Below, piece by piece: positions 29,243-29,473 of a DNA stretch of 64,000 nucleotides (its first letter is position 1; the number at the start of each line of letters is the position of its first letter). Both the position numbers and the translations under genes were made by a program. Under the pieces are notes generated by a model. That model was not told the DNA's origin. It did no database searches and saw only the letters and a program-made list of their open reading frames with translations. Source of the DNA: Haloferax sp. Q22 (GTDB taxonomy: Archaea; Halobacteriota; Halobacteria; Halobacteriales; Haloferacaceae); contig NZ_LOEP01000016.1 of assembly GCF_001482285.1 (NCBI RefSeq), forward strand, positions 62,001 through 126,000, written 5' to 3'.

Positions 29243-29323
29243 GCCAGGATGGCCGAGCGGTAAGGCGCACGCCTGGAAAGCGTGTTCCCTCTGGGATCGG
29301 GGGTTCAAATCCCTCTCCTGGCG
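29243..29323 (+). tRNA. tRNA-Ser (anticodon GGA)
   Basis: An 81-nt class II tRNA. The acceptor stem GCCAGGA pairs with TCCTGGC, followed by discriminator G; the D arm carries GCCGAGCGGTAAGGC; the anticodon stem CACGC/GCGTG encloses CTGGAAA with anticodon GGA; the long variable arm TTCCCTCTGGGA marks a serine tRNA; and the T arm is CGGGGGTTCAAATCCCTC, of which GAGGG/CCCTC-like pairing is the stem. No intron and no encoded CCA. The 3' end is duplicated 145 nt downstream. Confidence 0.96.
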
Positions 29324-29328
29324 CTTCT
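29302..29328 (+). repeat. Direct repeat copy 1: tRNA-Ser 3' end (att-like)
   Basis: The 27 nt from the T-loop through the tRNA end plus CTTCT recur exactly at 29447-29473. The 3' half of a tRNA gene is the usual integration target of archaeal tyrosine recombinases, with the core repeated at the far end of the element. Confidence 0.75.
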
Positions 29329-29389
29329 TCCGAACTCAACCCACGTAGCAGCGCGTCTCGTCGCGCTGCGGACTGCGAGTTCGGAAGAA
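29325..29389 (+). terminator. Long hairpin immediately after tRNA-Ser
   Basis: A perfect 13-bp stem (29325-29337 with 29377-29389) encloses a second perfect 8-bp stem (29348-29355 with 29362-29369, loop TCTCGT). It begins 2 nt after the tRNA end. It may act as a tRNA 3' trailer or terminator, a small RNA, or a recombination substrate. There is no T-run after it, so termination is uncertain. Confidence 0.45.
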
Positions 29390-29446
29390 CGCCTCAGTTG
29401 GATTTGAACCAGAGAGCGAAGCGAACAGAGTGAGCGGAGCGACTGA

Positions 29447-29473
29447 GGTTCAAATCCCTCTCCTGGCGCTTCT
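29447..29473 (+). repeat. Direct repeat copy 2: duplicated tRNA-Ser 3' end (att-like)
   Basis: An exact 27-nt copy of 29302-29328, separated by 118 nt of non-tRNA sequence. There is no 5' tRNA half in front of it; instead the preceding bases (29400-29410, GGATTTGAACC) are the inverted complement of its first 11 nt, forming a hairpin around GAGCGAAGCG-type repeats. This is consistent with the remnant of an excised or decayed element. Confidence 0.7.

Follow-up and report, generated by a model that had tools for sequence, protein, structure and literature searches.

The 3' end of the tRNA-Ser(GGA) gene, the single tRNA gene returned by a tRNA gene search of the 64,000-nt stretch analyzed here (the window), is repeated exactly a short distance downstream, raising the question of whether the second copy is the trace of a lost provirus or part of an organized structure. 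A first reading made from the letters alone (the sequence-only reading) had noticed the 27-nt repeat, considered it too exact for chance, and proposed a possible attachment-site remnant, namely the scar of an excised element with most of its interior deleted, an empty tandem attachment site, or a strain-specific target. Here we describe the structure of this locus, its occurrence behind other tRNA genes, and the processes that may have produced it.

Structure of the tRNA-Ser(GGA) locus

A repeat search confirmed two identical 27-nt copies with starts 145 nt apart. The "145 bp downstream" of the sequence-only reading holds as this start-to-start distance, but the second copy begins 123 nt past the tRNA end. 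Allowing up to 3 mismatches, the 27-mer has no other match in the 3.98-Mb genome, which excludes chance. Read from the tRNA outward, the first tail is followed by a hairpin (S1), then by an inverted T-arm (A') and a loop of GAGCGAAGCG type (L), and finally by the second tail (Table 1). RNAfold predicts that S1 and A'-L-tail fold as two separate hairpins.

Table 1. Features of the tRNA-Ser(GGA) locus in window coordinates
Feature	Position	Strand	Remarks
tRNA-Ser(GGA) gene	29243-29323	+	nt 53-73 (G53 to discriminator) = 29303-29323
Copy 1 of 27-nt direct repeat	29302-29328	+	tRNA tail plus 5 nt of trailer
S1 hairpin, directly 3' of tRNA	29325-29389	+	arms 29325-29337/29377-29389, 13 bp, 100% complementary
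A', inverted T-arm copy GGATTTGAACC	29400-29410	-	pairs with second tail copy
L, class I loop AGAGAGCGAAGCGAACAGAGTGAGCGGAGCGACTGA, palindromic by itself	29411-29446	+	
A'-L-A hairpin	29401-29456	+	covariance model R2, 81.6 bits; one of the 17 sequences building R2
Copy 2 of 27-nt direct repeat	29447-29473	+	displaced tRNA tail = 29447-29468 (GGTTCAAATCCCTCTCCTGGCG)

ARAGORN calls the tRNA at 29243-29324, and the Rfam tRNA match ends at 29323; in an Rfam scan of the locus the tRNA alone exceeded the threshold, with no other RNA family. Because the interior contains an inverted T-arm and a perfect 13-bp inverted repeat, the 118 nt between the copies are organized and not deletion debris; no gene lies within this short interval, and none of the 12 integrase matches of the genome falls within the window's part of its contig (C8). 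Positions 29324-29468 are one non-coding "tail-hairpin unit" of about 140 bp directly behind the tRNA, with all of the features that define the family described below: S1, A', L, and a copy of nt 53-73 of its own tRNA, on the same strand. In the window's copy, identity to the tRNA extends 5 nt beyond the usual end.

Distribution of tail-hairpin units

BLAST of the locus against relatives matched the tRNA plus a dispersed piece (query 181-239) that corresponds to A'-L-A. In the same genome, the arrangement recurs behind tRNA-Asp, tRNA-Ser(TGA), tRNA-Lys, tRNA-Glu, and tRNA-Gly, each with its own tail. Using a tail-copy test (an ungapped match to the final 24 nt of the same tRNA, scoring 14 or more and located no further than 400 bp downstream), we found own-tail copies at 26 of its 50 tRNA genes; as controls, the 5' third and the middle third of the tRNA each gave 3/50, and the tails of other tRNAs seldom reached a score of 14. 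Genome G037, from another family of the window's order, has such copies at 20/35 tRNA genes, and G066, of the same phylum outside the order, at 2/35, both due to neighboring copies of the same tRNA. Throughout the four haloarchaeal genomes surveyed, the unit anatomy stands behind about half of the tRNA genes. G037 also has about a dozen closely packed tRNA genes, most of them low-scoring and all on one strand (C1:2635124-2637763), possibly on a mobile element.

A GTDB scan with the pattern GATTTGAACC-N20-50-GGTTCAAATC returned at least 120 stretches; among the matches listed, 106 are haloarchaeal and hold 108 elements, 98 of which follow a tRNA on its strand at a distance of no more than 400 bp. 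A covariance model of 44 class II/III hairpins (R1), run on 295 genomes of the phylum, matched 51/53 genomes of the window's order, with 2-17 matches per positive genome among the 17 candidates scored for each, and 0/242 of the others. A second model, for class I (R2; 17 sequences including the window's), matched 33/39 relatives. Best-match loci lie directly behind a tRNA in 51/59 cases, and most of the other eight involve a tRNA missed by the gene finder, a slightly greater distance, or a partial tRNA that an inserted element has left behind. Similarly, all 65 matches sampled from five genomes are downstream of a tRNA on the same strand, 31-542 bp away, in arrays of up to five units. Across the order, many different tRNAs are followed by the same classes of loop, in which asymmetric bases are conserved, and the class II/III motif AGTCGC...CGTCT is conserved order-wide.

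This recurrence as a family at many tRNAs and in many species rules out a one-off attachment scar; an organized unit behind about half of haloarchaeal tRNA genes is neither a gutted interior nor a strain-specific remnant. The sequence-only reading had itself named two observations that would speak against a scar. One, the same arrangement in all haloarchaea without a known integrase that uses this core, largely agrees with what we find; the other, a repeat family far from tRNAs, is not, as the family lies beside them.

We found no description of these units in Rfam or in the openly searchable full-text literature, and the family is apparently undescribed so far, although an earlier notice in subscription papers is possible. 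Two single cases deserve mention: a tRNA-Val unit has its loop L inverted relative to all others (L124:4117-4173), and at L556:1725-2042 a 105-aa ORF (FEAGSERSERPRFESAPTHF) runs through a unit, so that units probably yield spurious haloarchaeal protein annotations.

Boundaries and tRNA specificity of the copied segment

When 241 copies are compared with their host tRNAs, identity stays at or near control level up to nt 51, reaches about 0.9-1.0 at nt 53-73 (about 0.98 for the segment), and falls back to near control level immediately after the discriminator (nt 73); 194 of the copies have at most one mismatch. They are followed by CTT, TTT, or similar and not by CCA, and therefore the mature tRNA was not the template. 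The copies match the T-loop variant of their own tRNA (His, Val-CAC, Thr-GGT, Gly-CCC), and A' and copy together track unusual T-loops: GAATTGAACC...GGTTCAATTC behind tRNA-His and tRNA-Gly(CCC), and GAGTTGAACC...GGTTCAACTC behind a tRNA-Val. On the flanks of A', the match to the own tRNA falls to control level past 3-4 positions. A second type, with 36 copies, starts at T60/C61, and its inverted piece is the acceptor strand (seen at tRNA-Ala). Two irregularities were observed: several copies have gained a single base in their T-loop, repeatedly giving GGTTCACAATC (e.g., L372, L370, L375, L213), where A' retains GATTTGAACC; and, about 130-260 nt behind tRNA-Ser in Haloferax genome G008 (L013), a tail copy that breaks into short CT-rich tandem repeats (cttcccacctctcccc-like).

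Filled sites, empty sites and arrays

At tRNA-Lys(CTT), the unit is present in the window's own genome and G007, and the site is empty in G011 and G002 with collinear flanks. The alignment has one clean 139-bp gap with the tail as direct repeat; in the empty genomes the tRNA with its tail runs straight into the shared flank TTCCTTCATC, with nothing between. Seven more genomes lack a unit here (G001, G003, G014, G013, G008, G009, G012), and two have units with other S1 sequences (G010, G005). In a pair of tRNA-Ala(GGC) genes in the window's own genome, one copy has an extra unit exactly between the tRNA end and TTTCTGAACG. Units are thus gained or lost as a block, and inserted as a unit. The sequence-only reading was right to regard the duplicated tRNA end as att-like insofar as it bounds an insert, as the filled and empty Lys sites demonstrate, but not as a solitary scar. 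Taken alone, this pair may reflect either gain or precise loss, since recombination between the 21-bp tails would leave the same empty site.

An empty site was found at tRNA-Lys and not at the window's tRNA-Ser, where the alignment across Haloferax that the sequence-only reading had suggested reveals the unit in 12/14 readable genomes, with two S1 types; one genome has both types in tandem, one has an internal deletion, and one has a degenerate unit. Sister species carry different unit types at this same locus, and the tail copy has decayed in several species.

Within an array, L loops are hardly more alike than between genomes (similarity 0.716 versus 0.69) while the tails match, which indicates that most units are not fresh duplicates of each other; similar divergence within arrays and between genomes is expected of separate insertions. 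At loci chosen by their units, the first tail was better than the last in 58:8 comparisons, a gradient that we suspected of selection bias for that reason. At a larger set of loci chosen only by their tRNA, with units recognized without the acceptor part, the first copy prevailed 15:4 with 11 ties (p=0.01; the sequences are not independent). Of the four cases that run the other way, three look as if the palindromic TTCGAA of A' had been scored as a copy. The acceptor part alone gave 5:4 in the first two tRNA-chosen genomes (the window's own and G037), where the gradient was not confirmed. We conclude with moderate confidence that arrays grow at the tRNA side.

These patterns also bear on the idea that units are by-products of replication or repair, made by template switching at the T-arm palindrome and shuffled by recombination between tail copies, with no dedicated enzyme or function. 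Everything in the units is palindromic, inverted tail pieces come in two kinds (T-arm and acceptor), and tail repeats have given rise to a duplicated unit in a tRNA-Glu tandem and to an internal deletion at L017. De novo template switching, however, would not yield loops of one class, conserved in their asymmetric bases, behind many different tRNAs, and the units are restricted to one archaeal order; we regard this origin as unlikely.

Proviruses, plasmids and integrases

A search of viruses and plasmids, which the sequence-only reading had advised, did not provide the expected carrier. Pattern scans of IMG/VR gave 8 matches, none with a haloarchaeal unit, and two further scans gave 0 and 0; phage records held no unit match, and a plasmid collection yielded one weak match. 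No integrase lies near the pHGLR2 match. We therefore reject a viral or plasmid origin.

Integrated elements do occur between tRNA and unit (L096, L112, L118, L133, L241, L270, L295), and in several of these loci a partial tRNA (attR) is left before S1. No A'-L hairpin was found at these attR ends; the units are thus not att arms of those elements, and the elements identify no autonomous parent. Among the loci read, no autonomous transposon partner of the kind that defines MITEs was seen. At tRNA-Lys of G006, the first ~45 nt of S1 lie beside the tRNA and a 4-kb stretch ends at a perfect distal tail; its tyrosine integrase gene (L555:3027-4052; PF00589 + PF02899) is 43% identical to the SNJ2 integrase. 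We considered this stretch as a full-size parent of the units, but its right end lacks A'-L, and we read it as a provirus remnant at the distal tail. At tRNA-Val of G014, the distal tail is followed by a 1.4-kb insert. Both cases suggest that displaced tails can serve as attachment sites; in this respect the sequence-only reading of the repeat as an attachment site stands, whereas the attR ends without the hairpin set the unit itself apart.

A further insert, at L092:3182-4328 between a tRNA-Ala and its unit, consists of two adjacent genes. Judged by eye, the 221-aa product is a possible nucleotidyltransferase with HTH and the 162-aa product possibly HEPN-like, resembling an MNT-HEPN toxin-antitoxin pair. 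As the unit's own S1 comes after the pair, the two genes are inserted ahead of the unit and are not cassette cargo.

The G006 and G014 loci could also be taken to mean that the host keeps displaced tails as decoy attB sites for tRNA-targeting proviruses. Many integrations nevertheless strike the tRNA itself and push the unit away, the A'-L hairpin is superfluous for a decoy, and tRNA-targeting integrases restore the tRNA anyway (PMC8371274), all of which makes such a role quite improbable. Descent from a single provirus, excised or internally deleted at tRNA-Ser, fares worst: it accounts for the direct repeat of the tRNA tail, but the regular anatomy at many tRNAs and species, a 22-nt tail missing from viral contigs, and element ends at unit loci that do not resemble the unit leave it scarcely credible.

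Covariation, strand bias and a possible trailer function

The units might alternatively be structured tRNA trailers with a function. In such a scheme, the unit would be transcribed behind the tRNA, S1 and A'-L-A would fold as RNA, and the paired tail copy would guide or protect 3'-end processing, termination, or precursor decay, or would offer an alternative 3' half competing for the acceptor stem; the acceptor 5' strand of the tRNA is indeed predicted to pair with the second copy. Helix covariation is strong: 15/20 pairs have double changes, and 260 double-change cells were counted where shuffles give 80 (sd 8.5). G·T exceeds A·C on the tRNA strand by 55:10 in outer stems and 18:7 in inner stems, together 73 versus 17, although covariance-model alignments favor G·U and the two sets share a few units; the class II/III stems of the seed set show no signal (G·T 4, A·C 5). 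This excess implies transcription through the unit and fits either RNA selection or pairing or transcription-linked mutation. Predicted folds are more stable for the sense than the antisense strand in 72/98 units, and the invariant strand and tRNA side of the 65 sampled matches and the order-wide class II/III motif point the same way. On the other hand, roughly every second tRNA gene of a cell does without a unit, sister species differ by gain or loss of the unit at orthologous tRNAs, the copies retain the acceptor part (nt 65-73) though A' leaves it unpaired, and the tail copy has decayed in several species. A trailer function is accordingly a serious possibility that falls short of probable, and it retains this standing mainly because of the G·T excess.

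Comparison with known elements

The units share several traits with tRNA-targeted integrative elements such as SNJ2-type betapleolipoviruses: a direct repeat of the tRNA 3' end bounds the insert, the tRNA stays intact, and sites occur filled and empty. However, they are only about 140 bp long, carry no integrase or any other gene, contain an inverted T-arm, and stand behind about half of one genome's tRNA genes. The SNJ2 att site comprises 13-14 bp at the acceptor end (PMC8371274).

Like REP/BIME sequences, MITEs, and the PATEs and Small Mobile Repeats of Haloquadratum, tail-hairpin units are short, non-coding, hairpin-forming, present in many copies, and without an enzyme of their own. Those elements are dispersed, as described for PATEs and Small Mobile Repeats over the Haloquadratum genome (PMC3119063), and MITEs are tied to known transposon ends, whereas tail-hairpin units lie solely behind tRNAs and carry the host tRNA's tail; the 65/65 and 51/59 model matches directly behind a tRNA contrast with the tRNA-independent dispersal of REP/BIME.

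Tandem, non-coding repeats behind a tRNA are also represented by the rtT repeats of Escherichia coli tyrT, each with a piece of the tRNA's 3' end; they occupy one locus in one bacterium and have longer repeat units. The haloarchaeal units, by comparison, span a whole order and many isoacceptors and have an inverted T-arm and a hairpin loop, and rtT was not among the Rfam matches listed up to E=10 at the locus. Integron attC sites form imperfect hairpins, have a conserved GTT at their junction, and stand in tandem arrays that grow from one end. Tail-hairpin units resemble them in all of these respects, but lack an integron integrase and cassette genes, and their box is GTTCAAATC instead of GTTRRRY.

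Origin and significance of the units

Considering all of these observations, we favor a very small non-coding unit that inserts specifically at tRNA 3' ends, non-autonomous and moved by recombination specific to the tRNA end, a reading whose mover and function are inferred and whose chances we put at about even. The insert is bounded by the tRNA tail, the proximal tail completing the tRNA and the distal one being the displaced tail. A recombinase that acts in trans at the tRNA T-loop and 3' end would mobilize the unit, with the T-arm dyad formed by A' and A as a candidate recognition structure. The difference at the Lys site would then represent gain and not precise loss. New units would arise beside the tRNA while older displaced tails drift off and decay, and spread between cells might proceed via homologous DNA uptake or mating. 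Several points count against this insertion: with no enzyme linked to the units, none of them in the virus and phage collections and one weak plasmid match, the mobile carrier is missing; the integrated elements that displace units reveal no autonomous parent; and a pure DNA element needs no excess of G·T over A·C.

In its broadest form, which we advance tentatively as possible but not probable, the proposal is that tail-hairpin units are a new class of non-coding mobile units of less than 150 bp, confined to haloarchaeal tRNA 3' ends, that restore the tRNA by means of the tail they bring along, accumulate in arrays growing at the tRNA side, and leave displaced tails as spare provirus attachment sites.

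Because units come and go as blocks, mobility and RNA function are both testable. The units occur in the laboratory genus Haloferax too, and Haloferax volcanii offers a simple genetic test between insertion of a 140-bp hairpin at a tRNA and a role as trailer. Tail-hairpin units confuse the calling of att sites and prophages, and would account for many of the "duplicated tRNA ends" taken for prophage scars.
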